Positions 1 to 54,300 of a stretch of DNA of 64,000 nucleotides are shown here, in pieces. A model generated the notes under the pieces. It did no database searches. It saw only the letters and a list, made by a program, of their open reading frames with translations, and was not told the DNA's origin. Position 1 is the stretch's first letter. Each line of letters starts with the position of its first letter. The position numbers were made by a program, and so were the translations under genes. The DNA is from Bordetella sp. LUAb4 (GTDB taxonomy: Bacteria; Pseudomonadota; Gammaproteobacteria; Burkholderiales; Burkholderiaceae_B): NCBI RefSeq assembly GCF_021325795.1, contig NZ_JAHPZX010000004.1:558001-622000 (forward strand), in the 5' to 3' direction.

Positions 1-30112
<30,112 letters not shown>

Positions 30113-30113
<1 letters not shown>

Positions 30114-33100
30114 TAGTGTGCTCCTACCTCTTGCGTCAATCCATGGCCGGTTGCCGTCTCGGTGCCCTCGCGCAGGAACGCCCCTAGCTCGCGAAAGGTA
30201 CGGTGCGTGAAGATCGCCGCCGGCATGATGTGCCTCTCCAACCGCGCGCCCAGCTCCGCCGCATAGCGGATCGCGGCGATGGAGTCGCCGCCGCATTCGA
30301 AGAAGTCATCGTCGAGCGACAGGCCAGGGGCTTCCAACAGGCTCTCTGCCACCTCCACCAGCAAGCGGGCCAAGGCGTCGTTGGGCGGCACGTGCCGGCT
30401 GTCACCGGATGGTGCCGACACACGCTGCGCAAGCTGACGCTGATCGACCTTGCCATTAGGCAGCCGTGGAATGACACCGATGCATTCCACCCATGCCGGC
30501 ACCATATGGTCCGGCAGGCCGCGCGACAGCTCCGCGCGCAGGAACTTGCCGGTCAGATACCCCTGGGCGTCGTCGTCGGCGACCACGAATGCCGCAAGCC
30601 GTGCTGGCGTGCCATCGGTCACCGCCGCAATCACGATGGCCTGTGATACGCCGGGCATACGCCGCAGCACCGCGGCGATTTCTTCCGGTTCGACCCGATA
30701 GCCCCGTATCTTCACCTGCGTGTCCATCCGCCCGCACAGGACCAGCCCACCTTGCGGCAGGTAGCACCCGAGGTCTCCCGTGCGATAGCAGCGCGGAGCG
30801 CCTTCGCCGGTGCGCTCCACGAACCCGCCGCTATCGTTGGTCAGATAGCCTCGGGCGAGCTGCCGGCCGGTGACGTAGAGTTCGCCGACTTCGCCGGCGG
30901 CGGCGAGTCCGCCGCGGCGATTGACGAGGAAGGCCTGGCAATTGTCCATGGCCCGCGTCAGGGGCGACGGCCCGCGGTCCGCCCCCTGGGCCGTACGCTC
31001 GAATGCGTGGAACAGAACGCCGATGGTCGTCTCGGTGGGACCGTAATGGTTGTAGATCCTCACGTCGCCGTCCAACGCCCTCAGCTTGCCGACCATGCCG
31101 TCAGGGATAGGCTCGCCGCCCAGGATGACCGTGCCCAAGGCCAAGGGCGCGCTTTGGGTAAGCAGCGCGTCCAGATGCGAGGGCACGATCTTCAGGCAAT
31201 CGATCTGTTTCTCGCGCAAGAAATGTTGAAACGCCATGGCTGACACGCTCTCTTCAGCGTCGGCAACGGCCAGCGTCGCCCCGTGATAAAACGCGCCGAA
31301 CAAAGCGGTATTGCCCAGATCGGCAGCCACCGTGGCGGTCCATCCATAGACACGGCACGGCTGCAATGCCAGACCGGCGCTGACTGCGCCTGTATAGGCC
31401 ATGATCTGCCTGTGCTCGACCACCACACCCTTGGGCGTGCCGGTGGATCCCGACGTGAACATCACATACGCCGCGTCGTGCCCGGCTACCGATTGGCGCG
31501 ACGGTTGCCGCGACGCTTGGGGCGGCACTTGGGGCGCCGGCGCTAGGAGCAAGTCCTTCAGATTCACGCACGGACCCGGCCATGCGCCGCCCAAACGCCC
31601 ACCCAGCGCGGCTTCGGCCAGGACCAGCCTGGCCTGGCTCTGCGCCAGGATCTGCACGATCCGATCGAGCGGCCATCCGCCGTCCAGCGGTACGTAAGCC
31701 GCGCCCGCACGCAGCACACCCATCAGGCCGGCCACCAGCTCGGGGCTGCGGGGCGCCAGCAGCGCCACTCTGTCCCCGGCACCAACGCCGCTGGCGGCAA
31801 GGCCGTCCGCCACGCGGTCGACCTGCGCGTTCAACTCGGCATAGGTCAGTGAGGTGTCCCTGTACCGTAACGCCACGCGGTGGGGCGCGATCCGGCTCCA
31901 GTGAGCGATCCAGGCGTCGATTCCCCCTTCGACTTCGTCCGTGGCATTGCCGGTCAGCCGGCGGGCCCGCAGGGTGGCGTTGTCCTCCAGCGCCAGGTCG
32001 CCGATGGCGCCGTCACGCTGTTGAGCGAGACCGTCCAGCAATTGGGCGTACTGAGCGGCGAGTGTTTGTATCCAGCTGTCGCCAGCCGACGCCGGCACGT
32101 AGTGAAACTCCAGTTTGGCCGCGCCGCTCGCCTCGATAACGACGCTACCGAGCAAGTCCAACCCATGAAGGCGATAGGCAGCGGGGATGGATGCGGCGCA
32201 CGTCGGCGCCGCGGGATGGGCCGCCACGGGTGACGGCTGCCCCACCACGGGCACGCTCACCACGGAGAACCCCACGCCGCAACCCAAGGCGCTGACGGTC
32301 GCCGGCGCCTCGATCTGTTCAGCCCAGGCCCGATGCGCCTGCAGGACGGCATCGAATCGTCTTGCCACGTCATCCACCTTGTCATCGGGCGTGGCGTCGC
32401 CCAGCACCGGCATGATCCGCTCGAACGCGCCAACCGCGTCTCGCAGCACGTCATAGTCCTGGCGACCGTCGTGGAGCCACGCATACGCCAGCCGATATTC
32501 GCCGGAAAGACGTGCCAACAGCACATACCAGGCGACATGCAGCAAGGCGTCCACCGCAACGCCGGCGCGCTCGGCGCTGTCGCCCAGCGCGGCCATGATC
32601 CGCGCGTCGATGCTGTGATGATGCGATGAATATGCCGCGCATCCACCCTGGCCGACATCCTGTCGGGAACCGGCGGGCGGACGCAGGAAGGGGGCATCGA
32701 CCCGATGGGGATGCGGTCCTATCGCGTCCTGGCAAGCCTGCCAGTACTGCTGCCCCGCGGTCCGGACGGGTTCTTCCGCGAGGGTGGCGCGCCAATCGAG
32801 GAAATCCACATAGGGCAGCGCTTCGTCGGCAGCCTCGCCAGCATTCAGGCCGGGGCCCGCTTCGTAACGCAGCAAGGCCTGCTGGACGTAGCGGTACAGA
32901 CCTATCCGGTCGCACACCAGCGCGCATGCCGAGACGGTGATGCGCCTGACACCACCCTGGGCGCGCTCGAGCACGACGCGCAGCAGCGGGCCAGTCATCG
33001 GGCCAGTCATCGGACCAGCCCCAAGGTCGCCCGGCGCCGAATCCGGCGCTTGCGAAACGCCGTCGTCGGCTACCTGACGGACATCGATATCGACACGGGG

Positions 33101-33319
33101 CTGGGTGCCCGTGCTTATTTCCAGCGTAAGCGGATCGAAGATGGCGCTGAACGCCTCATGGCGGTGCGCGACATCATGGCAGGCAAGAGCCAGCCGGGCC
33201 GCGTCCAGCGGACGCCCGAGCACGAAGCTGGCACCGACGCAGGGCAAGGGCATGTCGCCGCCATCCCACAGCAGCGCCTGGGCCGGCGCGAGCCGGGCAG
33301 ACAAGGTATTCATGGTCAT
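30113..33319 (-). CDS. NRPS gene C: degenerate C - A(Asp) - T
   Basis: A 1068-residue protein. Residues 1-460 form a condensation-family fold whose active-site segment near residue 135 reads CALVCDR where HHxxxDG is expected: both His are lost and only Asp remains. Residues 465-960 are an A domain (FTSGSTGTPKG, YNHYGPTETT, KVDQRQL) with pocket D235 L236 T239 K278 I299 G301 H322 I330 G331, a clear aspartate code. Residues 975-1045 are a carrier (CGGDSIAAI). The gene sits between the oxygenase end of gene B and gene D, overlapping by four and one bases. The protein most likely supplies Asp-S-carrier for condensation by the last C domain of gene B and for beta-hydroxylation. The dead C-like domain may be an interface that docks the oxygenase. 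The A domain sequence is clearly unlike the other A domains here. Confidence 0.95.
30114..30133 (-). promoter_or_regulatory. Ribosome binding site of gene D
   Basis: TAGGAG lies 7 bases before the ATG at 30113-30111; stop and start share one base as TAATG. This is the best Shine-Dalgarno match in the window and fixes the gene D start. The frame is open for a further 61 codons upstream, but that stretch has no NRPS similarity. Confidence 0.8.
30200..31925 (-). other. A(Asp)-T didomain of gene C
   Basis: The pocket code DLTKIGHIG was read from AADLGNT, CLKIVPS, TVILGGE and NHYGPTETTIG. This matches known aspartate-activating domains. The carrier has FECGGDSIAAIRYA. There is no E or TE domain. 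Confidence 0.88.
31930..33319 (-). other. Inactive condensation-like domain of gene C
   Basis: The C-family pattern is recognisable (FVLGRPLDAARLALACHDVAHRHEAF near residue 30; the donor-side half has LLHVAWYVLLARLSG). The catalytic histidines are replaced (CALVCDR). The loop usually ending in PFDL is replaced by a PMTGPMTGP direct repeat. It cannot catalyse condensation by the normal His mechanism, so a structural or docking role is more likely. Confidence 0.8.
32988..33011 (+). repeat. Twelve-base tandem duplication (gggccagtcatc x2)
   Basis: Two perfect copies followed by a partial third. They encode PMTGPMTGP in the degenerate C-like domain of gene C, where PFDL and the residues before it lie in active C domains. 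Confidence 0.9.
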
Positions 33320-36300
33320 CGAGCTTCCCCCAAGGCCAGGGACGGCAGGAACGGGGCGCGGTCCACCATCTCTCCCAATGCCACGACGATCTTGCGCGGT
33401 TCCTGGTAAGGATCGCGGCCATGGGCGGTCAGCATGTTGTCCAGCAGGACGACATCGCCACGCTCCCAGGCAAAGCGCACCGCATGCTCGTCATAGAGCT
33501 TGCCGATCAACGCGAGCACGTCCTCCTCGATTTCACTGCCGTCCCCATACGTCACGTTGCGCGGCAGCCGTTCACGGCCGACCAGCTGCAATAGCGATGC
33601 GCGCAAGCCGGCTTCCAGGAAGAAGGGATGATGCAACTGGATCTGGTTGAAGAAAGACGCCTGCCCCGTGACGGGGTGCCGGATGATCGCCGGCGCGCGC
33701 GTGCTCACCTGCAGTTCGCCGGTGGCGAGCCAGCGGCACTCGTCGCCGCGCGCCCGGCACAGGGACTCGACTTGGTCCTTGTCGTCGGTCTTGAAGAAAT
33801 CCTGCCACGCCACGTCCAGCATGTCCGTGAACGTACGGATATAGGTGAGGCCCGTTTGTTCGAGCCGCTGCGCCAGCGGCGCGGGCAGGCGGTCGAACAG
33901 TTTGCGGCAGTCGACGATGGGCGTCGCCCCGCCCACCTTGGACGGCAACTCGCAGAAAAACAATTGCTTGCGGGGCCATGTGGCCAGGTGCGAGCTTTCG
34001 TTGTGGAACAGGATCATCTGCTTTTCAGGATAAGGCGTCGAACGGTAAGCGCGCTTGCCGCCCTCCTTCTTGGGCAGGTCGCCATAATCCCCGTACAACT
34101 CCCCTGCCACGACACCCGCGAAGTCCTCGAAGGCGCGCGTGCCATCCAGTCCCAATCCCCGCAACAAGACGCTGCCGTGCTCGTTCAACAGGTCCTCGAT
34201 CATGGATCGATGCCGCGTGGCCCATTGCGCCCCGTCTTGCGGCGCGGCGTGCAAGGCGATGACGGCGGGAAAGCCACGCTGGATATCGAAACCGTCCGGC
34301 ACGGATGCAGGTCCTGGCTGGATCCGCGGGTCCGGTGCCGCGGGCGCGCGCGCCGGCTTGCGGTCCCGCATGCGCGCGGCCAGGCTGGCGTTCCTGGAAT
34401 TCCTGATGAGATTTGCGTCCATTTCAAGCTCCGGTTGTCTGGGCAAGACGATCTGCGACAGCGGCTGGTCCGGCGCGGCCAGAACCCGTCCCAGCACTGC
34501 CAGCCATTTTTCCAACATGTCTTGCACGGTGGCGCGCATGAACAGGCTGGTGGCGTACACCAGTTCCGCTTCCCATGCCTGGCCTTTCTGCGCGATGAAC
34601 AGCGCGAGATCAAATTTGGAATGCCGGTGGGGCAGGTCGATCGGGGCATGGCGGGCCCCGGGAATTTCGAAATTCAGCTCAGGCAGGTTCTGCAGCACGA
34701 ACAGGACTTGCACCAGAGGGTTGGCGCTCTCGTGTCGCTTCACGCCAGCCACCTCCACGATTTCGTCCAGGGGCAGCAGTTGATGCGCCATGGCGCTGAG
34801 CACGGATGCGCGGGATTGCTCCAGGAAGCTGTCCAGGGTCATTGTGCTTTCGTCATCGCCGTAGCCTGAGCGTACGGGCAGCACGCTGACGAAGAAGCCG
34901 AAGATGTCTTCCAGACGCGGATCGACGCGGCCATGCAGGTCGGTTCCGATGACCAGGTCCCGTTTGCCCGTCCACGCGTGCAGGAAGATCTGAAAGCTTG
35001 CGAGCAGGACGAAATACGGGGTGGTCTTGCGGCTCGCGGCATAAGCCGAAAGCCGCGTCATGGCCTGCGGATCGATGGCCAGCTTTACGGAATCGCCGGC
35101 GGAATCCGGTGTGACGCCACGCGGCCTGTCGGGCCGCAAGGACGACACGGCGGGTGAGTCGGCCAGATAGCCTTGCCAGAACTGCCGCAGTTGCGTGCCT
35201 TGAGCGCACGCCAGCAAGCCCTGATGCCAGGCGGCATAGTCCGCGTATTGCAAAGGCAAGGCAGGCAGGACCGCATTCTCCGCGGCCAGGCTGCGGCGGT
35301 AGGCGCCGACGAAATCGTTGATGAGCAGGTTGACGGACCACCCATCGGAAACGATGTGGTGCATGCAGAAAGCCAGGATGTGCCGGGTGTCGGTGATCTG
35401 GACGTGCAATACCCGGATGAGGCAATCCCGTTCCAGGTCGAACGGACGCTGCACATAGTCTTCGAGGTATTCGCAGGCCTTTTCATCGGGGGTGGTGACG
35501 TCACCGACTGCACGGATTCCTTCACCGGCATCGTCACTGGCAATCTCACCGGCGTCGATGGCAACGAAATCCAGGCGCGCTTCGGAATGCGTATCCAGCA
35601 GCATGCGCGGTTCCCTGCCGACGAGCCCATAACTGGAACGCAGGACCTCATGCCTGGCAAAGACCGAGGCCACGGCGGCTTGCAGCGCTTCCCTATCCAA
35701 TTCGCCATGCAGGTTCAACGCGCCATGCACGTTGTACGCCGCCGAGGAAGCGCCACTGATCTTTTCCGCGATCCAGATCCTGCGTTGGGCGGGCGACAGG
35801 CGCATAGACCCGGCACGCGTAACCGGTGACAGCGATCTAGTCAGCTCGCGTGCCGACGATATCGCCTGCCCGACGTGGCCATCCCCGGCGCCGCGCTGAC
35901 GTGCGAACTCGCACGTGGCCTCGATACTTCCCAAGGAGAAGAATTCGGCGAGGGATATCTCGATGCGAGCATCTTGACGCATACGAGACACGGTTTTCAA
36001 TGCAGAGATGGAGTCGCCGCCCAGCTCGAAGAAATTGTCTTGACGCCCGATCCGGCCGACGCCCAGCACGTCCTGCCAGATCCGCGCCAGCGCTTGTTCG
36101 GCTTCGCCTTGCGGCGCTTCGTAAACTTGTGCGGCGAATTCCGGCGCCGGCAGGGCCTTGCGGTCCACCTTGCCGTTGGGCGTCAGGGGTAGCGCGTCCA
36201 GCACCACGATCGCGGACGGCACCATGTAGTCCGGCAATACGGCGCTCAGTCGGGTCCGCAGCTGGAGGCTATCCAGCGCCTGGCCCGCTGCGCCTGCATC

Positions 36301-39300
36301 CTGGTCAGCCGCGCCCGCTTCCTGGTCAGGCGCGCCGGTGACATAGGCCACCAGCCGGGAGCCGGACGGTCCGTCCTGCGCCGTGACCACCGCTTCCCGC
36401 ACGCCCGCCTGCGCCTGCAACCGCGCCTCCACCTCGCCCAGCTCGATGCGGTAGCCACGAATCTTGACCTGGTGGTCTATGCGGCCCAGATACTCTAGCT
36501 GGCCCTCGCCATTCCAGCGCGCCAGATCGCCTGTGCGGTACAGCCTGCCGCCCGCTACGCTGAACGGATCCGGCACGAAGCGCTCCGCCGTCAAGGCGGC
36601 CCGGTCAAGGTAGCCGCGCGCCAGCGACGATCCCCCCAGATACAGTTCCCCCACCACGCCCATCGGCAGCAGGTCGACCTGCCCGTCCACCACATAGGCG
36701 CTGCGCTCGCCGACCGGACGGCCTATCGGAACGTAGGCGCTGTCGATCTCGGTCTCGCCACCGGCTTGCCACGTGGTCGGCGATATCACCGTCTCCGCCG
36801 GCCCATACACATTGTGCAGGTGTTGGGGCCGCCACGCCGCGCGCACCGCATCGAAGCAGTCGCGCGACCACGCCTCGCCACCCACGATGCACAGACGCAT
36901 GCGCAAACCGGCATCGCGCGTTTCTTGCGCCAGGGTCTGGGCATACGCCGGCGGCAGATACAAGACGTTGATCTGGTGGCGGATGGCCTCCTGCACCAGG
37001 CGCTCGCCCGACCACACCTGGTCATCGCGCAGCACCACCGCCGCGCCGCTCAGCAGCGGGATCAGCCATTGTTCCTGCGCCGCGTCAAAGCTGAGCGATG
37101 CGAACTGCAGCAGCCTGTCGTCAGGCGCGAGCTGATACCGTGCGCCGATGGCTGCGCAATGCTTGGCCAGCGCCTCGTGGGCGACCGCCACCCCTTTGGG
37201 TTTGCCGGTCGAGCCGGACGTGTAGATCACGTAGGCCAGATTCTCGCCATGCAGCGCGACATCGGGATTGCTCGCTGGCTCACCAGACAGATCTTCCGCG
37301 TCCAGCACCAAGGTTCTGACGCCCTCCAATGAGGGCAGCGACCGTGCCACCGATGACTGTGTCAGCACCAGCGCCAGGCCGCTATCGGCCATCATGTGCG
37401 CCAGGCGTTCCGTTGGATACGCGGGGTCCAGCGGCACATACGCGCCACCCGCCTTCAGCACGGCCAGCAGTCCGACCACCAGGTCGATCGATCGCTCCAG
37501 CGCCACGCCCACCTTCGCTTCCGGCCCTACGCCCAGCTTGTGCAGGCGATGCGCCAGGCGATTGGCCTGCGCGTTCAGGTCCGCATAGCTCAGTTGCTGG
37601 TTGCCGTAAATCAGCGCCACCGAATCCGGCGTGCGCAACGCCTGAGCCTCGATCCGGCCATGCACCGGGTCCAGGCCGGCATAAGCCAGCTCCGCCTGGC
37701 CCAATGCCAGCAGCCGCGCACGCTCCGAATCGTCCAATACGGACAGCTCGCCCACCACGCTGTTCGGACCGCAATCCGCCACGTCCTCGATCAGGCGCGA
37801 CAGCTGCTTCAGCAGCGCCTCGACCACGTGCGGCGCGAAGGCCTGCCCCTGGTATGCGGCGTGCAGCGAGATGTCGGCGGCCTCCAGCACCGCCAACGTC
37901 AGCGGATAATTGGTTTGCTCGCGCGACTGCACGGCTTCGAACGACAGCCCCTGCGGGGCCCCTTGCCTGAGCGCTTCCGCCACCGGATAGTTCTCGTACA
38001 CCAGCAGCGTGTCGAACAAGCCCGGGCCACCCGCGCCGGCCCAGCGTTGTATCTCGTTCAGCGGCGTATGTTCGTGGTCCCGGGCAGACAGCGCCTGCTC
38101 CTGCACTCGTCGTAACCACGCGCCCACCCCTTCTTCGGCCCGAATATCCGTCACAACGGGGATCGTGTTGATGAACAAGCCCACCGCATGTTCGATCCCC
38201 GCCAATTGCGCCGGCCTTCCCGACACCGTCGAACCGAACACTACCGTGCCCTGCCCCGTATACCGTGACAGCAACAAAGACCATGCCGCCTGTACGACAG
38301 TGTTCACCGTCACGCGCTGGCTCCGTGCGAACACCGACAGTCGGTCCGCCACGGACGCGGCCAACACGTGCTCGCAGTCGAGGTAACCCGTACCTGCCAC
38401 GGGTCGTGCAAGCATGCCCGCCAATAGCGTGGGCCCCTCCAGCCGCGCCACTTGCTCGCGCCAGTACGACGCATTGGCGCGCGTGTCCTGCCTGGCCAGC
38501 CAGCCGATATAGTCCCGGTACCGGCCTGCCGGCGCGGCGACGGTAAGTCCCGAGTACGTCCGCAACACCTCGCCCAGGACCTGCGACACACTCCAGCCGT
38601 CCATCAACAAGTGGTGGTTCGTCCAGAGCAGATGATGACGCCCCGCGCCCAAGCGCACCAGCACCAGACGCATCAGCGGCGGCGCTGCCAGATCGAAGCC
38701 GCGCTGCAATTCGGCGGCCGCCAATTGCGTCAATCGCCGGCGATGATCCTGGGTGTTCTCACTGCTCCAATCCCGTATCTCGAAGGGCAAGCTTGCCGTG
38801 CGCGCGACCCATTGCAGCAAGGCCTCGCCGTGCTGCAGGAATCCGGTGCGCAGTACGTCGTGGCGCGCCACCGCGGCCTCCCAAGCCTGGCGGAAGCGCG
38901 CCTCGTCCAATCCCGTGATATCCAGCCGCAGCTGGTTCAGATAGGCGTGGCCGTTTTGCTCGTACGAGGCGTGGAACAACATGCCGGACTGCAAGGGCGA
39001 CAGCGGGTACAGGTCCGCCAGGCGATCGGCCGGCAACCCCAAGCCATCGAGCCGCGCCTGATCCAGCCTGGCCAGCGGGAAGTCCGACGGCGTCACGCGC
39101 TGAACGCCGCTGGTGCAGTGTGTGATCACGGCAGTCAGCTCGTCACGCATGGACTCGACGAAACGCTCGATGGTGGCCGGGGTGAAATGCGCCTTGGCGT
39201 AGGTCACCGTCAACGACAGTCTGCCGCCGTAGACCTGGCCGTTGATGGCCAGCAGGTGGTCACCATCCGCCTGTTCGTCCTGCGATGCCCCGATAGGCTC

Positions 39301-42300
39301 CGGGGCCGGCCGCCACCGCGCCGCGCCATCGAAACTTTGGTCGAGTTGCCCCAGGTAGTTGAAGACCACGGCGGACGGCTCAACCTGCTCGGCGGTAGCG
39401 GTGCCCATATAGCGCAACACCCCGTAGCCCAGCCCCTTGCCGGGGATCGCCCGCAGCGACTCCTTTACCTGACATATCGCTGCGCCAACCGCATCCGCCC
39501 CCGTCAGCACCACCGGATAGATGGTCGTGAACCAACCCACCGTCCGGCTCAGATCCAGCGCCTCGAACACGTCCTCGCGCCCATGGCCTTCAAGGTCGAT
39601 GCGGATACGCGCCCGGCCCGTCCAGGCGCATAGAGACCGGCCCAGCGCGGCCAACAGCAAGTCATTGATCTGCGTGCGGTACGCCGACGGCGCCTCCTGT
39701 AACAGCCGCCGCGTCAGCTCGCGCTCCAGGGTGAGCGTCACCGATGCCATGCCCTCGCCACCCGGGCCCTGGTGACTCGTGGCCGAGTCGTCTCGCGGCA
39801 AGGAGCCGTCGACAGCGGCGGTTTCCCGCCATGCATCCGACTCCGTGCGCAACGTTGCACTGCCCGCGTACTCGCGCAGCTGGCGTCCCCATTGCTGATA
39901 GGAACTGGTCTTCTCAGGCAGCACCACGGGAGCACCCGAGAGGACCTGCCCATAAGCCGTCTGCAGATCCTCCAGCAGGATGCGCCACGACACACCGTCC
40001 ACGACAAGGTGGTGGATCGCCAGCAGCAGGCGCGACGTGCCGTCGGCCACCTCGATGGACAGCGCGCGCAGAAGTGGACCTTGCGCCAGATCCAGGCTGC
40101 GTTGAGCCTGATCGCATAGCGCTTCGATCTCCGTGGCGTTCCCGGCCTGGCGTACCCACAGAATCCGTCTGGCGTCCTCTACCGCGTCATAGTGCTGGAC
40201 CCACTGACCGGCGTCGTCGAGCGTGAAGCGCAGGCGCAGTGCATCGTGATGCATCACCACGGCCTGTAGCGCCTGCGTCAATGCCTGCGTTTCCAGCGGG
40301 CCGCTGCTTTGCAGCAGCATCGCCTGGTTCCAATGGTGACGGTTCGGTACCGGCTGCTCGAAGAACCGTGCCTGGATCGGCAGCAGCGGTACGACGCCGG
40401 TATCGATGTTCGCACCCAGGCGCAAGGGCTGCTGCTCGCGCTGCGCCACCGCGGCCAGTTCACCCACTGTCTGGCGCTCGAACACCTGGCGAGGCTGCAC
40501 CGTCCAGCCCGCCTGCCGTGCTCTTGCCACGATCTGCAGGCTCAGGATCGAGTCGCCGCCGAGTTCAAAGAAATTGTCCTGGCGGCCAACCCGCTCCACG
40601 CCCAATACGTCTTGCCAGATCCGCGCCAGTGCTTGTTCGGCTTCGCCCTGTGGCGCTTCGTAGCCCTGCGAGGCGAACTCCGGCGCCGGCAGGGCCTTGC
40701 GATCCACCTTGCCGTTGGGTGTCAGCGGGAGCACCGCCAACACCACGATCGCCGACGGCACCATGTAATCCGGCAGCACCGCAGCCAACTGGGTCCGCAG
40801 GCGCTGGCCGTCCAAGGCCACGTCGGCGTTGGCGTTGGCGTTGGCGTTGGCGTTGGCGGTGACGTAGCCCACCAGACGGGCGCCAGTGGGACCGTCCTGA
40901 GCGGTGACTACCGCTTCCCTCACGCCGGCCTGCGCTTGCAGCTGCGACTCCACTTCGCCCAGCTCGATGCGGAAGCCGCGGATCTTCACCTGGTGGTCGA
41001 TCCGGCCCAGGTACTCCAACTGGCCTTGTTCATTCCAGCGGGCCAGGTCGCCTGTGCGATACAGCCTGCCGCCTTCTTCGCCATAGGGGTCCGGCACGAA
41101 GCGCTGGGCCGTCAGGTCAAAGCGGTTCAAGTAGCCCCGCGCCAACCCGGCGCCGGCCACATGCAACTCGCCCGCCACGCCCGGCGCCGCCAGGTTTCCT
41201 TCGCCATCGAGTACGTATAGTCCCAGGTCCGGTATCGCCCGGCCTACCGGGCTGCGTTCGCCCGCCACATCGGCGGCCAGGATCGGACGATACGTCACAT
41301 GCACCGTCGTCTCGGTGATGCCGTACATATTCACCAACCGTGGCTGCGTGTCGCCGTAATGGGCGATCCACGGCTCCAGCGTCCGCGGGTCCAGGGCTTC
41401 ACCACCGAAGATCACCGCCCGCAACGACAACCCGCCGTCGTACACACCGGGCACTTGCATCAGTTGCCGGAATGCCGAGGGCGTCTGGTTCAACACCGTC
41501 ACGCCCTCACGGCGCAACAGCGACAGGAATTCTTGCGGCGAACGGCTCACCAGATACGGCACGACGACCAGCTTGCCGCCATGGCACAGCGCGCCAAACA
41601 CTTCCCATACCGAGAAGTCGAAGGCGTAGGAATGGAACAAGGTCCAGACGTCCGCCTGGCCAAAGCCGAACCAACCCTCCGTACCCGTCAATAGCCGCGC
41701 CACGTTGCGATGCGTCAGCTGCGTGCCCTTGGGCCGGCCCGTCGAGCCCGACGTATAGATCACGTAGGCCAGGTTCTCGTCGTGCAGCACGACATCAGGG
41801 TTATCGCACGGTTCGCCGGACAGATCGTCCGTGTCCAGCACCAGAGTCTGCACCTGTTCCGTCAGCGGCAGCGATTCCAGTACGGACGATTGGGTCAGCA
41901 CCAGCGCCAGCCCGCTGTCGGCCATCATGTAGGCCAACCGGTCCGCCGGATACGACGGGTCCAGCGGCACATACGCAGCGCCCGCCTTGAGGACGCCGAG
42001 GAGCGCCACCACCAGATCGAGCGACCGTTCCAAGGCCACACCGACCTTCACTTCCGGCCCCACGCCCTGCTTCCGCAAACGATGCGCCACGCGGTTCGCC
42101 AGCGCGTTCAGTTCGCCGTAGCTCAACCGCGCGTCGTCGCACGTCAGCGCAATCGCATCGGGTCGGCGCGCGGCTTGCGCCTCGATCCGGCGATGCACCG
42201 GCTGCAATTGCGCGTAAGTGTCTTCCGGCTGACCCAGCGCCAGCAGCGCGGATTGCTCGGGCCCCGCCAATACGGACAACTCGCCCACCACGCTATCCGA

Positions 42301-45300
42301 GCTGGAGGTCACCACGTCCTCGATCAACCGCGACCAGTGCGTCATCAACCTGACGATGGCATCGGGGGCAAAAGCCTGTCCCTGGTACGCCGCCTGTATC
42401 GTCAACGCCTCCGCCTCGAGCACCGCCAACGTCAAGGGATAGTGGGTTTCCTCGCGCGACTGCACGGCCTCGAACGCCAAGCCCCCTGGCGCCCCTTGCC
42501 TGAGGGCCTCCGACACCGGATAGTTCTCGTACACCATGAGCGTATCGAACAAGCCCAGGCCACCCATGCCCGCCCAGCGCTGTATGTCGTTCAACGGCGT
42601 ATGCTCATGGTCCCGTGCGGCCAGTGCCTGCTCTTGCGCCCGCCGTAGCCACGAACCTAGCTGCTCCGCGGGACGAATGTCCATCACCACGGGCACCGTG
42701 TTGATGAACAAGCCCACCGCCTGCTCGATTCCCGCCAACTGCGCCGGCCTGCCCGACACCGTCGAACCGAACACCACCGTACCCTGTCCGGTGTAGCGCG
42801 ACAGCAGCAAGGACCACGTCGCCTGCATCAAGGTGTTGACGGTGACACGATGGCGGCGCGCGAACGACGTCATCGGTTCACGCACGCTTGCAGGCAACAC
42901 GTGTTCATACTTTCGGTAAGCCGTTCCATCGCCCGAAGACGTCGCCGGGCCGGCCAATAGCGTGGGCCCGTCCAGCCGTGCGACCTGCTTGCGCCAGTAG
43001 GCTTCATTGGCTTGCCCGTCCTGCCGCGCCAACCATGCGATGTAGTCGCGGTAGTGTCCTGCCAGCCCCCCCATGGGCTCGCCCCTGTAGGCGCGCAGCA
43101 CGTCGCCCATCAGCTGCGCCACGCTCCAACCGTCCATCAACAGGTGGTGGTGCGTCCAGATCAAGTGATGGCGGCCCCGGCCCAGCCGCAACAGCACCAG
43201 CCGCATCAGCGGCGGATTGGCCAGATCAAAGCCCCTTTGCAGCTCATCGGACGCCACTTGCGTCGCCCTGCGCTGTTGTGCCTCCGCGCTTTCACTTTCG
43301 CAATCCAGCACTTCAAGAGGCACGGTCAGCGTGCGCGCCACCCACTGCAAGGCCTCGCCCTGCTGCACAAAGCCCGTACGCAGCACTTCATGGCGGGCCA
43401 CGACGGCTTGCCACGCGCGGCGGAACGGGTCTTCATCCAAACCCGTGACATCCACCCTCAACTGATTCAGGTACGCATGGCCGCTTTGCTCATACAAGGC
43501 ATGGAAAAGCATCCCCGACTGCAAGGGCGACAGCGGGTACAAATCATCGAGCAGATCCTGCGGCACCGGCAACGCCGACCGTTGATCCGCGGTCAAGCCC
43601 GATAGCGCGAAACGGCTAATGCGGGTGGGCTGCAGTTCCCCCTTGTCATATCGGCTTGCCACCGCGGCCAGTTGCGCCAGTACCTGGCGCTCGAACACCT
43701 GGCGCGGCTGTATCTTCCAACCGGCTTCTCGCGCACGCGCCACGATCTGCAGGCTCAGGATCGAGTCACCGCCCAGTTCGAAGAAATTGCCCTGGCGGCT
43801 TATTTGATCGACGCCCAGCACGTCCTGCCAGATTTGCGCCAGCGCCTGCTCGGCCTCCCCCTGGGGCGCCTCAAAGCCTTGCGACGCGAATTCCGGCGCC
43901 GGCAGGGCCTTGCGGTCCACCTTGCCGTTGGGCGTCAGGGGTAGCGCGTCCAGCACCACGATCGCGGACGGCACCATGTAGTCCGGCAGCACGGTGCTCA
44001 GTCGGGTCCGCAGCTGGAGGCTATCCAGCGCCTGGCCCGCTGCGCCTGCATCCTGGTCAGCTGCGCCCGCTTCCTGCTCAGCCTCGTCCGCATCCCGGTC
44101 AGCCGCGCCGGTGACATAGGCCACCAGCCGGGCGCCGGACGGTCCGTGCTGCGCCATGACCACCGCTTCCCGCACGCCCGCCTGCGCCTGCAACCGCGCC
44201 TCCACCTCGCCCAGCTCGATGCGGTAGCCACGAATCTTGACCTGATGGTCTATGCGGCCCAGATATTCGAGCTGGCCCTCGCCATTCCAGCGCGCCAGAT
44301 CGCCTGTGCGGTACAGCCTGCCGCCCGCTACGCTGAACGGATCCGGCACGAAGCGCTCCGCCGTCAAGGCGGCCCGGTCAAGGTAGCCGCGCGCCAGCGA
44401 CGATCCCCCCAGGTACAGTTCCCCCACCACGCCCATCGGCAGCAGGTCGACCTGCCCGTCCACCACATAGGCGCTGCGCTCGCCGACCGGGCGGCCTATC
44501 GGCACGTAGGCGCTGTCGATCTCGGTCTCGCCATCGGCCTCCCACGTGGTCGGCGATATCACCGTCTCCGCCGGCCCATACACGTTGTGCAGGTGTTGGG
44601 GCCGCCACGCCGCGCGCACCGCATCGAAGCAGTCGCGCGACCACGCCTCGCCACCCACGATGCACAGACGCATGCGCAAACCGGCATCGCGCGTTTCTTG
44701 CGCCAGGGTCTGGGCATAGGCCGGCGGCAGATACAAGACGTTGATCTGGTGGCGAATGACCTCCTGCACCAGGCGCTCGCCCGACCACACCTGGTCATCG
44801 CGCAGCACCACCGCCGCGCCGCTCAGCAGCGGGATCAGCCATTGTTCCTGCGCCGCGTCAAAGCTGAGCGATGCGAACTGCAGCAGCCTGTCGTCAGGCG
44901 CGAGCTGATACCGTGCGCCGATGGCTGCGCAATGCTTGGCCAGCGCCTCGTGCGCGACTGCCACCCCTTTGGGTTTGCCCGTCGAGCCGGACGTGTAGAT
45001 CACGTAGGCCAGATTCTCGCCATGCAGCGCAATGTCGGGATTGCTCGCTGGCTCACCAGACAGATCTTCCGCGTCCAGCAACAAGGTCCTGACGCCCTCC
45101 AATGAGGGCAGCGACCGTGCCACCGATGATTGCGTCAGCACCAGCGCCAGGCCGCTATCGGCCATCATGTGCGCCAGGCGTTCCGTTGGATACGCGGGGT
45201 CCAGCGGCACATACGCGCCACCCGCCTTCAGCACGCCCAGCAGTCCCACCACCAGGTCGACCGACCGCTCCAGCGCCACGCCCACCTTCGCTTCCGGTCC

Positions 45301-48300
45301 TACACCCAGCTTGTGCAGGCGATGCGCCAGGCGATTGGCCTGCGCGTTCAGGTCCGCATGGCTCAGTTGTGCGCCGCCGTGGACCAGCGCTATCGCGGCG
45401 GGCATGCCAGCGGCTCGTGTCTCGATTTGCCGATGAACCGCTTGCAGACCCGGATAGGCTTCTTCCGTGCCCCCCAAGCCCAGCAGGGTCGAGCATTCGA
45501 CGCCATCCAGCAGGGACAATTCGCCGACGACACTATCCGGACCGAACGCAGCAACGTTGGCGATCAGCCGCGACAACTGCTCCATCAAGGTCACCACCGC
45601 CTGCGCCGCGAAGGCTTGCGCCTGGTAGGTGGCATGTATCGTCAATCCGCCCGCTTCGACCACTGCCAACGTCAGTGGATAGTTCGTTTCCTCGCGCGAC
45701 TGCACGGCCTCAAAGGACAAGCCTTGCTGCCCCCCTTGCTTCAGGGCATCCGCCACCGGGTAGTTCTCGTACACCAGTAGCGTGTCGAACAAACCCTGGC
45801 CGCCCACCGCGGCCCAGCGCTGGATGTCGTTCAGCGGCGTGTGCTCGTGGTCCCTGGCGGACAGCGCGTGGGCCTGCACCCGCCGTAGCCACGCGCCCAC
45901 CTGTTCCTGGGGACGAATGTCCATCACCATGGGAATGGTATTGATGAACAAGCCCACCGCGTGCTCGATCCCCGCCAGCTGCGCCGGTCTGCCCGACACC
46001 GTCGAACCGAAGGCCACCGTACCCTGGCCCGTGTGGCGCGACAGCAGCAGGGACCACGCCGCTTGCACGACCGTGTTCACCGTCACGTGTTGGCTGCGCG
46101 CGAACGACGACAATGTCCCGTTCAAGGATGCGGCGAACACGTGTTCGTATTTGCGGTAACCCGCTACGTCCACGGAACGTACCGCTGTGCCGGCCAATAG
46201 CGTAGGTCCTTCCAGCCGCGCGACCTGGGTACGCCAGTACGCTTCGTTGGCGTGCACGTCCTGCCTGGCCAGCCACGCGATGTAATCGCTGTAGTGCCCG
46301 GCGGTCCCATCCAATGGCTCGCCGGCGTAAGCGCGCAGCACTTCGCCCATGACCTGCGACACGCTCCAGCCATCCATCAGCAGGTGATGGTGGGTCCAGA
46401 TGACGTGATGGCGGCCGTGACCCACCCGCAGCAGCGCCAGCCGCATCAATGGTGGATCGAGCAGGTCGAAACCCTGTTCCAGCTGCGCGGCGGCGCAGTC
46501 ATCCAGAGCGGCGCGCGGATCCGCCTGCTGCCCTGGGTCCAGCACCTCAAAGGGCAAGGTCACCGTCCGCGCGACCCATTGCAGCAAGGCGTCGCCCTGC
46601 TGCAGGAACCCCGTGCGCAGCACTTCATGGCGCGCGACCACGGTTTCCCACGCCTGACGGAAGCGGCCTTCATCCAGGCCCGTGACATCCACCCGCAGCT
46701 GGTTCAGATACGCGTGGCCGTTTTGCTCGTACAAGGCATGGAACATGATGCCCGCCTGCATGGGCGACAGCGGATACACATCCTCGAGCAGCGCATGCGG
46801 TACCGGCAGCGCCAACCGTTGATCCGCGGTCAAGCCGGACAAGGCGTAACGGCCGATGCGGCTGCCCTGCAGTTCCGCCTTATCGTAGCGGCCTGCCGCC
46901 GCCGCCAACTGTGCGAGCAACTGGCGTTCGAATACCTGGCGCGGTTGCAGCTTCCAGCCGGCGTCCCTGGCGCGCGCGACGATCTGCAGGCTCAGGATCG
47001 AGTCCCCGCCCAGTTCGAAGAAATTGTCCTGGCGGCCGATGCGCGCCACGCCCAGCACGTCTTGCCAGATCCGCGCCAGTGCCAGCTCGGCTTCGCCCTG
47101 CGGGGCTTCATAACCTTGCGATACGAATTCCGGCGCAGGCAAGGCCTTGCGGTCGACTTTCCCGTTCGGTGTCAGCGGTAGCGCGTCCAGCGTCACGAAC
47201 GCCGAGGGCACCATGTATTCCGGCAGCGTGGCGGTCAAGTGTGCACGCAACGCTTGTACGTCCAACACGCTTTCCGCGTCGGCCGTCAAATAGGCCACCA
47301 GGCGCGATCCCGCGGGCCCTTCCTGCGCGGTGACCACGGCATCCCGCAAGCCGGCTTGGGCCTGCAACCGCGCCTCGATTTCTCCCAACTCGATGCGCAA
47401 GCCGCGGATCTTGACCTGGTGATCGAGGCGACCCCGATATTCCAGCTGGCCTTCGTCGTTCCAGCGCGCCAGGTCGCCCGTGCGATACAGCCTGCCGCCC
47501 TCTTCGCTATACGGATCCGGCACGAAGCGTTCGGCCGTCAACGCCGGGCGCTTCTCGTAGCCGCGCCCCAAGCCCGCTCCCCCCAGGTACAGTTCCGCCG
47601 CGACCGCTTGCGGGGCCAGCGTCATGGTGTCGCTCAATACGTAGGTCCGCACATTGGCTATTGGCCGGCCGATGGGCACGACCTCGTCGCCTGCGCGGCA
47701 CGTCCAGTGCGTCACGTCGATTGCGGCTTCCGTCGGGCCGTACAGGTTGTACAGGCCCACTCCCGGCAACCTCTGCAACACCGCATCTTGGAGCGCCGCC
47801 GGCAAGGCCTCGCCGCTGCACACGATACGCTTCAGCCCCGCGCAAGTCCGCGCCGTGTCTTCGGCCACGAAGGCCTGCAGCATGGGGGGCACGAAGTGCA
47901 GCGTGGTCACGCCATGGCGCTGGATCAAGCGCACCAACGCCTCCGGATCCCGATGCGCCCCCGGCTCGGCCACCGCCAATGTGGCGCCGACCATCAAGGG
48001 CCAGAAGAATTCCCACACCGACACGTCGAAGCTGAACGGCGTCTTCTGCAACACCGTATCCCTTGCATCCAGCCCGTACGCCTGTTGCATCCACGCCAGG
48101 CGGTTCGACAGCCCGCCATGACGATTACCCGCCCCCTTGGGCCGGCCCGTCGAGCCGGACGTGTAGATCACATAGGCCAGGTTCTCGCCATGCACTGGAA
48201 CGTCGGGGTTGGACGTCGATTCACCGGACAGATCTTCACGATCCAATGCCAATGCCGCCACGCCCGCGGGAAGTTGCAAGGAGGCTTGCACTGAAGACTG

Positions 48301-51300
48301 CGTCAACACCAGCGCCGAGCCGCTGTCCGCCATCATGTACGCCAGCCGATCCGGCGGATACGACGGATCCAGCGGCACGTATGCACCACCCGCCTTCAAC
48401 ACCCCCAACAGCGCCACAACCAGTTCCACCGACCGTTCCAGCGCGACGCCTACCTTTACATCCGGACCGACGCCCAGCTTGCGCAGACGATGCGCCAGGC
48501 GGTTCGCTCGCGCGTTCAACTCGGCATAACTCACATGGCCTTCGCCGAAGGCGGCCGCCCTGGCATGACTCACGCGATGTTCGCCAAAGGCGACGGCGAT
48601 TGCCTCGGGTGTGCGTTCCACCTGTGCTTCGATGGCCCGATGAACCGGATCCAGATGTCCGTAGGGGTCGTCCGTCCTGCTCAGCGCCAACAGGGCCGAT
48701 CGCTCCCGCTCGCCCAATACGGACAGGTCACCCAGCGGCAGGTCGCTGCGCGCGACCAGCGCTTCGAGTACGGTCACGTACCGAGCGCCCAGCCTGTGCA
48801 TGGTCCTTGGCTCGAACAGCTCCCGCGCATAGGCAAAGTTCGCCTGCAGCGTGCCGTCTTCATTCTCGGCGGTGTTCAGCATCAGATCGAACTGCGCCGT
48901 ACGCTCGCCCAGTGCGTAGCTCTCGACCGCCAGGCCCGGCAAGCCCCTGATCGTCACTTCGTCCGTACGCTGGTGGTTGTGCATCACCTGGAACAAGGGC
49001 GTATGGTCCAGGCTGCGCTGCGGCTGCAACGCTTCAACCAGCACGTCGAAGGGCAAGGCCTGGTGGGCCTGTGCACCCGCCATACCGCGCTTGACCGACG
49101 CCAGCACCGCGGCCAGCGCCATCCGTCCTGTGAACTGCGTACGGATCACCAGCGTGTTGACGAAGAAACCGATCACGCCTTGGGTCTGCGCCAGGTCACG
49201 GTTCGCATTCGCGATCCCCACCCGGATGTCCGCCTGCCCCGTGTACCGGTGCAGCAATACCTGCAGCCCTGCCAATAGCACCATGAATGGGGTGGCGCCA
49301 TGCGTCTGCGCCAGTTTGCGAATGTTCCGCGATAGCTCGGCCGGCAGTGGCACCGCGGTCTGCGCCTCGGTGTAGGCGCTCAGTGACTGCCTGGAATGAT
49401 CGTAAGGCAGCGCCAATACCGGATGATCCGCGCCCAGGTACTGTCGCCAATAGACCAGTTGACGCGCCTGCTCGCCCGCCTCCAGCCAGCGGCGCTGCCA
49501 CAACGCGTAATCGGCATATTGGACAGGCAGGGGCGGCAGCTCCAAGCGGCTTGCCCGATACGCCTGGACGAACTCCGCGAGCAACACTTGGATCGACCAG
49601 CCATCGGACACGATATGGTGCATCGATACCAGCAATACGTGCTCGCCCGCGGAGAGTTTGGCTACCGCTACCCGCAATAAGGGCCCTGCTTGCAGATCGA
49701 AGGGGCGACGGCCGAATTCCCCGGCCAGCGCGCGCAAGCGCTGCTCGGCGTTCGCGCCGCGATCACTATCGGTATCGGTATCGGTATCGGTATCGGTATC
49801 GGTATCGGTATCGGTATCGGTATCGGTATTTGCCTCCGCGCCGACGGCGACATCGGCGCGCGCCGACAGGTCGATCGTCGCATACTCGTACGGCAGCGAC
49901 CCGTGAATGATCTGTACCGCCGTGCCGTCGGCCTGCTGCGTAAACGTCGTGCGCAGCGACTCATGACGCGCCACCAGCGTCTCGAAGGCCGCCCGCACGG
50001 CGTTCGCGTCCAGCTCGCCCTGCAAACGCAAACCGCCGGCGATGTGGTAAGCACTACCCTCCGGTTGCAGATTCCACAGGAACCACAATCGCTGCTGCGC
50101 ATGAGACAGCGGCAGTCCGTTCCGTTGCGATTCTTCGATGACGGGGATGGCCGCTACGGCCGCTCGGCCATCCAAAGCCGCGGCCAATGCCTGCAAGGTC
50201 TGATGCTCGAACACCTGCCGCACGTCGACCGGTAGGCCGGACCGTTGCGCCGCCGACACCACCTTCAAGCTGAGAATGGAATCGCCGCCGAGTTCGAAGA
50301 AATTGTCCTGGCGGCCAACGCGCTCCACGCCCAATACGTCTTGCCAGATCCGCGCCAGTGCTTGTTCGGCTTCGCCCTGTGGCGCTTCGTAGCCCTGCGA
50401 GGCGAACTCTGGCGCTGGCAAGGCCTTGCGATCCACCTTGCCATTGGGCGTCAGCGGTAGCACCGCCAACACCACGATCGCCGACGGCACCATGTAATCC
50501 GGCAGGACGGCACCCAGCTGGGCCCGCAGTTGCTGGCCGTCCAGCACCTGGTCGGTTTCGGCAGGAGCGCCGCCCGCTCCAGCGATAACGTCACCGGCTT
50601 GGGCGTTCTCGCCGCCGGCTTCAGCAAGGAGATAGCCGGCTTTGGCAGTGACGTAGCCCACCAGCCGCAAACCGGACGGAGCCTCTTGTGCCGTGACCAC
50701 CGCTTCCCTCACGCCGGCCTGCGCTTGCAGCTGCGACTCCACTTCGCCCAGCTCGATGCGAAAGCCGCGGATCTTCACCTGGTGGTCGATCCGGCCCAGG
50801 TACTCCAACTGGCCTTGTTCATTCCAGCGGGCCAGGTCGCCTGTGCGGTACAGCCTGCCGCCTTCTTCGCCATAGGGGTCCGGCACGAAGCGCTGGGCCG
50901 TCAAGTCAAAACGGTTCAGGTAGCCGCGCGCCAACCCGGCACCGGCCACATGCAACTCGCCCGCCACGCCCGGCGCCGCCAGGTTTCCTTCGCCATCGAG
51001 TACGTATAGTCCCAGGTCCGGTATCGCCCGGCCTACGGGGCTGCGTTCGCCCGCCACATCCGCGGCCAGGATCGGACGGTACGTCACATGCACCGTCGTC
51101 TCGGTGATGCCGTACATATTCACCAACCGTGGCTGCGTGTCGCCGTAATGGGCGATCCACGGCTCCAGCGTCCGCGGGTCCAGGGCTTCGCCACCGAAGA
51201 TCACCGCCCGCAACGACAACCCGCCGTCGTACACACCGGGCACTTGCATCAGTTGCCGGAATGCCGAGGGCGTCTGGTTCAACACCGTCACGCCCTCACG

Positions 51301-54300
51301 GCGCAACAGCGACAGGAATTCTTGCGGCGACCGGCTCACCAGATACGGCACGACGACCAGCTTGCCGCCATGGCACAGCGCGCCAAACACTTCCCATACC
51401 GAGAAGTCGAAGGCGTAGGAATGGAACAAGGTCCAGACGTCCGCCGGGCCAAAACCGAACCAGCCCTCCGTACCCGCCAATAACCGCGCCACGTTGCGAT
51501 GCGTCAGCTGCGTGCCCTTGGGCCGGCCCGTCGAGCCCGACGTATAGATCACGTAGGCCAGGTTTTCGTCGTGCAGCACGACATCGGGGTTATCGCGCGG
51601 TTCGCCGGACAGATCGTCCGTGTCCAGCACCAGGGTCTGCACCTCTTCCGTCAGCGGCAGCGATTCCAGTACGGACGATTGGGTCAGCACCAGCGCCAGC
51701 CCGCTGTCGGCCATCATGTAGGCCAACCGGTCCGCCGGATACGACGGGTCCAGCGGCACATACGCCGCGCCCGCCTTGAGGACGCCGAGGAGCGCCACCA
51801 CCAGATCGAGCGACCGTTCCAAGGCCACACCGACCTTCACTTCCGGACCCACGCCCTGCTTCCGCAAACGATGCGCCACGCGGTTCGCCAGCGCGTTCAG
51901 TTCGCCGTAGCTCAACCGCGCGTCGTCGCACGTCAGCGCGATCGCATCGGGTCGGCGCGCGGCCTGCGCCTCGATCCGGCGATGCACGGGCTGCGCGCTA
52001 TGCCAGCATTCAGTGGCGCTGCCCCATTCGATCAGCCGGCTCGCGTCATCCTGGGCGGGCAATACAGTCTCGCCAATCGTGGCTTCCGGTCGATCGGCAA
52101 AGGCGCGCAAGGCGCGTAGCCAATCCTGAACGATGCGGCCAGCGACCGCGTCATCGATGCGTCCGTCTGCGTACGTGAGCATCGCCTGTGAACCTTGGTC
52201 CGCCTCTTCACGCACATCCAGCGCAAGATCGAACTGCGGCATGATGGGCGCGACGGGATGCGCCAGGCAACGCCAGCCGGGCACACGATTCAACGCCCGC
52301 AAATCGGTGCGCAGGTGATTGAAAACCACCTGGAACAAGGGATTGCGGCTGGCATCCCGGCCCGGATGCAGTGCCTCGACGATCAGGTCCAGCGGCGTGG
52401 CCGCGTGGCGGCGGGCATCCAGCAAGGTCCGGAATACGCTGCTGAGCGTGTCACGCAACGAGGTCGCGCCACTTAGGCGCATCCTGACAGCGTGGGTGTC
52501 GATCAGGAACCCGACAGGCCCTTCGCGTCCGTCCAGACCGCCACGCGACATCGGCACACCGATGCTGATGTCGGTGTTGCCGGAATTCAAGCGCAACGCC
52601 AGATAGAAGCTGGCCAGCAGCACCGTGGCCGGGGTGACCGCCGCTTCGCGTGCGGCGCGGTGCACGCCAGCCAGCAGCGCCGGATCCAGGTCCAATGCGA
52701 TGCTATGTGCCCGCGCGCCATGCGCTCGCGCGATCGTTCCTGTCCCGTCTTTGGCGCGTCCGCTGAAATCCACTGTCCGCGGCGCGTCGCCAAGCTGCTG
52801 CTTCCAATAAGCGATTCCTGCTGTCAGGCCAGGATCTGCTTGCGTGACGCCATTCGCGAGCGCCACCGGCGCATCAGGCAGCGCAGGGACATCAGGCAGC
52901 GTAGGCGCGACATTGGCCAGGCCGGCACGATAGCAATGCGACAACTCATCCACCAGCAGCTGCATGGACCGGCCATCTGCGATGATGTGATGCAGTACCA
53001 GCAGGAATACGTGCTGGCCCGCGCCGAGATCGAACAAGGCGGCGCGCCATAGCGGCGGCCGGGTCAAGTCGAAAGGCTCGCTAATCACGGACGCAATGCG
53101 CTCGTCCAGCGTGGCCTGGCCGTTGGCAACGGGGCTACTGTCGCTGTTGTTGCTGTTGCTGTTGCCGGTCGCAGCCTCACTCAGGTCCACCCGGCGCCAA
53201 GGCAGTTCGACGCTATCCACTACCGCCTGCGACGGGCCTTCTTCGCCGTCGATGAACACCGTACGCAGCGCTGCGTGGCGCGCTGCTAGATACGTCAGAC
53301 TACTGCGCAGCAGGTCCTCATCGACAGCCCCTTCGATCCGTACCGCGGCCGGAACATGGTAAGCGCAGCTGTCCGCATCCACCTTCCACAAAAACCACTG
53401 TTGGCGTTGGCCCGGCGTCAGCGCGACGGGGCCGACGGGGCTGGCTGGGTCGGCGCCACCCACAGTACCAACGGAGCCGCCGGAGGCGACGGGGCCAGCT
53501 GGCACCGCAGCGCCAGGCGCTTCAGCCCCCGGCGTGGCAGTGGCCCTCTGGCGAACCATGGCCTCGATGCGCGACGCTGCCTGGTCCAGCACGGGCGCCT
53601 CGAAAAGATCGGCCGGACCATAGTCGACATCCCATAACTGGCGCACACGCACCGCCAGCTGTACGCCTTGCAGGGAACTTCCGCCCAGACCGAAGAAGTT
53701 GGCCTGCGCCCCCCGCAGCGGCGTGCCGAGAACCTCCGCCCACACTTCGGCCAGCCGGCGCTGCGTGTCGTTGCGCCAGCGATCCGCGAACGCCGGCGCC
53801 GCGCCAGCTTCGGCGGCGGTGGCGATACCGATGGCGATGGCGGTGGCTTCGGCCGCGCCAGCACCAGCGTCAGCCTCGACACCACCCACATCGAACTTAC
53901 CGCCGGCATACACCGCATAACTGTCCAGCGTGCATTCCAGATACCCCCGCTTGACCGCGCCGCGTTGCAGTTTCCCGCTCGACGTCTTGGGCATCGCGCC
54001 CGGATTCAACAAGACGGCGGCGGCCACCGGCTCTCCATGGGCGACGCTGACGATCTCATTGAGCATCGCCACGATGGCCTGCGGGCTGGCCAGCTTCTGA
54101 CTGCGGTACGCAATCTCCAGCGCCAGGCCGATTCCCTCGCGGCCCTCCGTCTCCACCGCGAATGCGGCAACCCTACCCTTGCGAGCCAGGTCGAACTCCG
54201 CTTCGACGGCTTGTTCGACATCCTGCGGATAGATGTTCTGGCCCCGTACGATGATCAGGTCCTTGAGACGTCCGGCCACGTACAACTGACCCGCGTGCAC

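Follow-up and report, generated by a model that had tools for sequence, protein, structure and literature searches.

A probable aspartate β-hydroxylation cassette of the known fused-hydroxylase and interface-domain kind in a 19-A-domain assembly line of Bordetella sp. LUAb4

Introduction

Reitz et al. (2019) are said to have introduced the interface domain, a member of the condensation (C) domain superfamily that reportedly stands before an aspartate-specific adenylation (A) domain where an oxygenase is fused to the C-terminus of a nonribosomal peptide synthetase (NRPS). Here we describe a set of domains of this sort in a 64,000-nucleotide stretch of DNA from Bordetella sp. LUAb4 (contig NZ_JAHPZX010000004.1, positions 558,001 to 622,000; hereafter the window). 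The set is divided between the end of one NRPS gene, which we call gene B, and the beginning of the next, gene C.

The closest described system is that of potashchelin, whose assembly line begins FAAL-ACP-C-TauD-C-A(Asp)-PCP, with the TauD-C fusion in PtcB and the extension modules on PtcC to PtcF; taiwachelin is named as similar in domain order (PMC7100376). Classes of siderophore aspartate hydroxylase have been named (PMC12971057), and antiSMASH 8 carries interface-domain profiles (PMC12230676). β-Hydroxyaspartate (β-OH-Asp) has been reported in the megapolibactins and tistrellabactins. A comparable change of role is known from glycopeptide synthetases, in which the X domain is a C-family domain that has become a platform for recruiting oxidases, namely P450s (PMC8949500). 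The part of the open-licence literature that we searched yielded no structural or biochemical test of an interface domain.

The window shares its order with PtcB/PtcC and with the taiwachelin loading region: TauD is fused to a C domain, the aspartate module lies on the next protein, and the setting is that of a siderophore. It differs in position, since the potashchelin cassette adds its residue directly to the fatty acid and the window cassette, by the order proposed below, contributes the sixth of 19. It differs also in name, the second domain being called simply C in the available text on potashchelin (PMC7100376) and being interface-type here. Compared with the fused siderophore aspartate hydroxylases that have an interface domain (IBH_Asp), we found no difference of kind. 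The arrangement is ordinary for β-hydroxyaspartate siderophores and has already been described.

Results

Genes B and C very probably encode a siderophore aspartate β-hydroxylation cassette of the known kind, made of a fused hydroxylase and an interface domain. The first-pass annotation of this DNA had proposed an aspartate module split over two proteins, and this was confirmed: an intact C domain and a TauD-type oxygenase close gene B, and gene C holds a C-like domain without catalytic histidines, an A domain for aspartate and a carrier (T) domain (Table 1). The last 894 residues of gene B contain the Condensation and TauD families and no further Pfam family at E 0.01. The C domain carries the motif HHIVSDG and the oxygenase HNESSH, and TauD stops 21 residues short of the protein end. 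The gene B stop codon (TGA, 33318-33316) overlaps the gene C start codon (ATG, 33319-33317) by four bases. Because the gene C stop codon and the gene D start codon share one base (TAATG, 30115-30111), translational coupling of genes B, C and D seems likely. In gene C, CALVCDR takes the place of HHxxxDG, with neither histidine present and the aspartate retained. A product of chance or a frame artefact was rejected, since the frame is open and the same order recurs in many Pseudomonadota.

The locus thus has a TauD-family domain fused to the C-terminus of an NRPS protein, as in the fused aspartate hydroxylase class, and the A domain adjoining it has an L-Asp code. That code, DLTKIGHIG, departs from the OH-Asp code published for tistrellabactin, DLTKVGHVGK (PMC10391617), only by exchanges of I and V, with the tenth position not read in our case.

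A search of plasmids with gene C turned up pairs divided in this way in Janthinobacterium (L004), Variovorax (L005) and Azospirillum (L006), each with C-TauD followed by interface-A-T as in the window. Their oxygenase domains are 55-58% identical to that of the window and their interface domains 27-30%. We also scanned genome contigs with an oxygenase alignment, by way of two short peptide patterns, and took the best 80 of 233 relatives, a sample in which rarer arrangements may be under-represented. The oxygenase is followed by an interface-A protein in 76 of these 80. Seventy-three of the pairs were parsed and three recognised by eye (L079, intact and missed by the motif; L074 and L083, with a visible interface domain and broken frames). 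The other four are L062, which has an A-T protein without an interface domain, and L065, L071 and L072, in which the oxygenase stands alone and no A gene was seen immediately downstream. With the three plasmid loci added, the parsed set came to 76 pairs, and seven of the 83 loci gave no parsed pair.

Within the parsed set, the distance from stop to start is -4 in 48 of 76 pairs and between -8 and +11 in 74. The HHxxxD motif is absent from all 76 interface domains; another residue occupies the place of the second, catalytic histidine in 75 and that of the first in 68. The exact code DLTK[IV]GH[IV]G was read in 68 A domains, the remaining eight being four without a reading and four misreads starting DLT. 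In 70 pairs the oxygenase shares its frame with a C domain; no full one was seen in L010 (a free-standing oxygenase), L015 (whose frame starts at a contig end), L059, L066, L069 and L089. From the counts in the best 80 and the plasmid loci, C-TauD followed by interface-A-T is the standard order among the sampled relatives. The first-pass suggestion that this exact arrangement may be new therefore fails: the order is in print for potashchelin, taiwachelin is likened to it, and 76 of the best 80 relatives share it. A search of 121 genomes with the single interface-domain sequence, at E 1e-10, found G071 alone beyond this genome.

The same counts bear on when the hydroxyl group would be added. 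Free aspartate could be hydroxylated before loading, in which case the A domain would pick β-OH-Asp. We consider this improbable: the gene C code recurs in 68 of the 76 parsed cassettes, and fusion at a module boundary would best suit a carrier-bound substrate. A review, too, describes TauD domains as always adjoining aspartate A domains and acting after adenylation, on the carrier (PMC8949500).

To place the two C-type domains we used trees thinned of near-copies, with survey homologues and this cluster's own domains, rather than characterised enzymes, as references. In the larger tree (92 of 275 domains), 29 interface domains including that of gene C form one group, with a Shimodaira-Hasegawa-like approximate likelihood ratio (SH-aLRT) of 100, and 21 C domains preceding fused oxygenases form a separate group (SH-aLRT 99). 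A more careful tree of 54 rows, from which the epimerization (E) domains of the window were left out, gave bootstrap/SH-aLRT values of 100/100 for the interface clade (11 rows) and 100/97 for the clade of C domains preceding TauD (13 rows). The terminal C domain of gene B belongs to the latter clade, and the gene C domain stands apart from LCL, DCL, E and starter C domains. Because the gene C domain is a long branch in these trees, we also scored it against two profiles free of window sequences, built from 48 interface rows and 83 C-type rows. It reached 208.1 bits on the interface profile versus 81.8 on the C profile, and the cluster's remaining 25 C and E domains had the reverse preference, each by more than 190 bits. 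The first-pass annotation had asked for such a phylogeny and had named a grouping with ordinary LCL domains as what would refute its proposal. That grouping did not appear: trees (clade support 100) and profile scores (208 versus 82 bits) put the domain with interface domains and not with LCL or DCL domains.

These results leave little room for an ordinary LCL domain that recently lost its histidines, with the gene C module as a broken duplicate. Such an origin would agree with the weak Pfam Condensation match (24.5 bits, below the gathering score of 30.6), and is contradicted by the clade membership and the profile scores. The motif is missing from all 76 parsed homologous domains as well. 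We rejected this explanation on the trees and profile scores and regard it as scarcely credible.

AlphaFold2 predicted a complete C-domain fold for the gene C interface domain (predicted local distance difference test, pLDDT, 83.8; predicted template modelling score, pTM, 0.88), so that the locus has a C-superfamily fold without HHxxxDG directly before an aspartate A domain, as is typical of the interface class. The best Foldseek match was the Txo2 C-A protein 6p1j (TMq 0.78). The X domain 4tx2 also matched (TMq 0.70), and it is by fold that we liken the window domain to the X domain. The domain had earlier been called inactive and dead; the absence of the catalytic histidines agrees with this, and "dead" fits catalysis only, the predicted fold being whole.

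In the oxygenase, H106, E108, H300 and R309 are invariant across a 30-row alignment; in this family they serve as metal and 2-oxoglutarate ligands. The AlphaFold2 model has a pLDDT of 85.2, and its nearest solved fold is 1y0z (TMq 0.77). On our A4 profile (E <= 1e-90) the window oxygenase scored 558 bits, eight matches from the same family that lie in long open frames (1483-3080 aa) scored 592-638 bits and nine in short frames (342-483 aa) 305-324 bits; the profile leans toward the fused type, since it contains the window row and mainly fused ones, and G071 was the long-frame match that was examined. By these scores and by trees without named reference enzymes (46 oxygenases after thinning of near-copies; 35-38 rows in smaller trees), the window oxygenase groups with fused rather than stand-alone hydroxylases.

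Several observations weigh against the assignment to the fused, interface-assisted kind. The nearest sister of the window oxygenase is a free-standing enzyme from G064, a relative of the same family (SH-aLRT 94 and 96; 494 bits), and the nine-member set that holds the window enzyme also includes three stand-alone enzymes from Pseudomonas (SH-aLRT 96). In G064 (L103, G064:C22:79000-98000), a protein ending in a C domain is followed by a separate 350-codon oxygenase frame and then by an A(Asp)-T protein lacking an interface domain. In L062 (Nitrospirillum, 10966-12756) a fused C-TauD protein overlaps an A(Asp)-T protein that likewise has none, though its oxygenase sister L006 (SH-aLRT 99) has one. 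An interface-type domain was found nowhere else in 97 kb of G064 or 21 kb of L062, and one could lie beyond. The gene C interface domain departs from its relatives at 6 of 30 columns that are more than 90% conserved, including the G and R of a GYRG-type stretch. It is at most 30% identical to each of 76 others, and no domain in its clade has a longer branch (1.97 and 2.24 changes per column in two trees). Finally, papers contest the stereochemistry of the class: the potashchelin paper expects the fused domain to give L-threo (PMC7100376), and the variochelin paper expects erythro.

The free-standing sister enzyme with its interface-less partner, the divergence of the gene C domain and its counterpart's absence from L062, in another lineage, where the sister L006 has one, would all suit a passive, decaying relic heading for loss, with the oxygenase recruited by the neighbouring C domain or carrier. 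We think such decay unlikely, because the gene C domain keeps 24 of the 30 columns, including all 11 that are 100% conserved (D137, W176, W193, W264, D284, R286, G297, P304 and E334 among them), its reading frame is open throughout, and its modelled fold is complete. An interface domain in use remains our preferred interpretation.

Since L062 and G064 keep the cassette without it, the interface domain cannot, as far as gene content can tell, be strictly required everywhere. A further variant is L010 (6743-11046), where a free oxygenase gene directly precedes an interface-A-T gene and no NRPS frame was found upstream in the available DNA. The C domains before the oxygenases are more uniform than their surroundings. 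Upstream of 70 of them we saw a C-A-T module in 41 cases, a polyketide synthase (PKS) in 2, a recognised FAAL in 2, an A domain close to where the available frame begins in 3 and unclassified sequence in 22; the 13 in the careful tree include one FAAL and two PKS cases. That these domains form one group despite differing upstream partners suggests that the pre-oxygenase C domain is specialised. In a small C-domain tree the window pairs with G064, weakly (61).

The NRPS genes around the cassette (G000:C15:546899-622120) hold 19 A domains, two of them with a graminine code, and one aspartate cassette (Table 1).

Table 1. Positions of the NRPS genes and cassette domains in the window
Feature	Position	Strand	Content and basis
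Gene A	55580..64000 (start 64120, outside window)	minus	two graminine-code modules (first with E), then thioesterase; Pfam Thioesterase 87.8 bits
Gene B	33316..55587	minus	FAAL-T, five C-A-T (Thr, Ser, Gln-like, Thr with E, Gln-like), C-TauD
Gene B open reading frame	33316-55797	minus	probable real start ~55587, from similar N-terminus in G064
C domain ending gene B, directly before oxygenase	34432..35808	minus	Pfam Condensation 299.5 bits, residues 65-523 of 33316-36000 minus-strand translation
TauD-type Fe(II)/2-oxoglutarate oxygenase, gene B C-terminus	33382..34227	minus	Pfam TauD 144.3 bits, residues 592-873
Overlap of gene B stop and gene C start	33316..33319	minus	ATGA; sequence
Gene C	30113-33319	minus	1068 aa
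Interface-type domain, gene C residues ~1-450	31970..33319	minus	without HHxxxD; profile scores, clade, fold
CALVCDR in place of HHxxxDG, gene C residues 132-138	32906..32926	minus	alignments
Gene C A domain	30449..31900	minus	code DLTKIGHIG = Asp, from motif landmarks; AMP-binding 254.9 bits
Gene C carrier (T)	30173..30364	minus	motif GGDSI; PP-binding 42.3 bits
Gene D	11283..30113 (start codon 30113)	minus	five modules: Ser, Ser-E, X2, Ser-E, X2
Gene E	1..11299 (11.1 kb more outside window)	minus	six modules: Ser-E, Ser, Gly, Ser, Ser-E, Ser

From the positions of the FAAL and the thioesterase, the proteins probably act in the order B-C-D-E-A, with gene A as probably the last protein of the line. 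The predicted product would be acyl-Thr-Ser-Gln?-D-Thr-Gln?-(OH)Asp-Ser-D-Ser-X2-D-Ser-X2-D-Ser-Ser-Gly-Ser-D-Ser-Ser-D-Gra-Gra. The Gln-like reading of DAEYIGVIS follows from likeness to two published D-Gln codes. The X2 code, DIEFIGAVA, belongs to the gene D A domains at residues 3263 and 5879, which are 94% identical. Other A-domain cores are also near-identical within the line: gene B 1415/4678 (98%), gene B 3598/6189 (92-93%) and gene E 4371/7005 (93%). The G064 cluster has 9 A domains and a similar gene order, its other genes having been judged by position and N-termini. Because the four pairs within the window line are 92-98% identical, compared with at most 80% to G064, the line seems to have gained its extra modules by later duplication, a pattern that gene conversion would also give.

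The two gene A adenylation domains have their best match (60 and 57%) in the third such domain of the Tistrella line, which is the graminine domain with code DVHRTGLVAK (PMC10391617). They carry the landmarks of that code, with the tenth position not read and the fourth settled only after the published code was known. An SznF-like protein (L009:1153-2598, minus strand; E 1.3e-34; 53% identical to the Tistrella homologue) and a YqcI_YcgG protein (L009:198-1055, minus strand) are encoded beside the NRPS genes. We take the YqcI_YcgG family to be linked to GrbE. The two proteins are a probable graminine-forming pair. The G064 cluster has homologues of both (67% for the SznF-like and 76% for the YqcI-like protein). 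A search for GrbD-like proteins in 399 genomes drawn from the order found only this genome, G064 with its 67% homologue presumably being undrawn.

Further neighbours are a TonB siderophore receptor, Fur, a cyclic peptide exporter, a PepSY_TM protein, a thioesterase and a phosphopantetheinyl transferase. With a TonB receptor, Fur and graminine-type genes close by, a non-siderophore lipopeptide was rejected as the product. Separately, a 1153-codon frame (L007:773-4234, minus strand) joins a PvdQ-like penicillin amidase (494 bits; NCBIfam cut-off 950) to HemS/ChuX-type haem-utilisation domains and is a candidate fusion.

Discussion

The known fused-hydroxylase scheme suggests how the cassette would work. 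The gene C A domain, whose aspartate code is observed, would load L-Asp onto its own carrier. The oxygenase at the end of gene B would then reach over the protein boundary and hydroxylate the carrier-bound aspartate, and the catalytically dead C-like domain would hold oxygenase and Asp-S-carrier together; both steps have precedent in the literature. The intact C domain of gene B, with its complete motif and its separate clade, would finally join the growing chain to the amine of β-OH-Asp. This is the division of labour that the first-pass annotation had put forward, with bond formation by the intact C domain and docking by the dead one. It is supported by its agreement with the known fused aspartate hydroxylase scheme and by the interface grouping; docking is inferred, and the two relatives without an interface domain speak against a strict need for it. 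To judge by the hydroxylase class, the residue made is probably L-threo β-OH-Asp.

A broader proposal concerns what is essential. The core of the cassette may be the oxygenase and a dedicated C domain, the latter specialised to take β-OH-Asp from another protein's carrier across the intervening domain. The interface domain would then be auxiliary, apparently lost at least twice (L062 and G064), and the window line would be a gramibactin-type line probably grown to 19 modules by recent duplication, its syntenic relative having 9. We offer this as a tentative possibility, more doubtful than not.

In its graminine genes the locus resembles the gramibactin, megapolibactin and tistrellabactin systems, with GrbD/SznF-like and YqcI_YcgG genes and a graminine A code. 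It differs from all three in its 19 A domains, and from tistrellabactin also in having a fused cassette in place of a stand-alone hydroxylase (PMC10391617). Gramibactin is hexadentate (PMC7898861). The two graminine-code A domains and the flanking graminine-type and iron-uptake genes indicate that β-OH-Asp probably serves as third iron ligand in a siderophore of the gramibactin type. By codes and neighbours, β-OH-Asp and the two graminines of gene A would each act as a bidentate ligand for iron in a long acylated siderophore, and the ligand count would therefore equal that of gramibactin.

Knowing that the arrangement is ordinary spares its rediscovery. The less ordinary point of the locus is the 19-A-domain line, a setting from which a siderophore of 19 residues, including two graminines and one β-OH-Asp, is predicted. 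The most useful outcome of the comparison is a natural series: the interface domain is present beside a fused oxygenase in the window and L006 and beside a free one in L010, and it is missing beside a fused oxygenase in L062 and a free one in G064. Pairs such as L006 and L062 put the proposed role of the interface domain within direct reach of testing.

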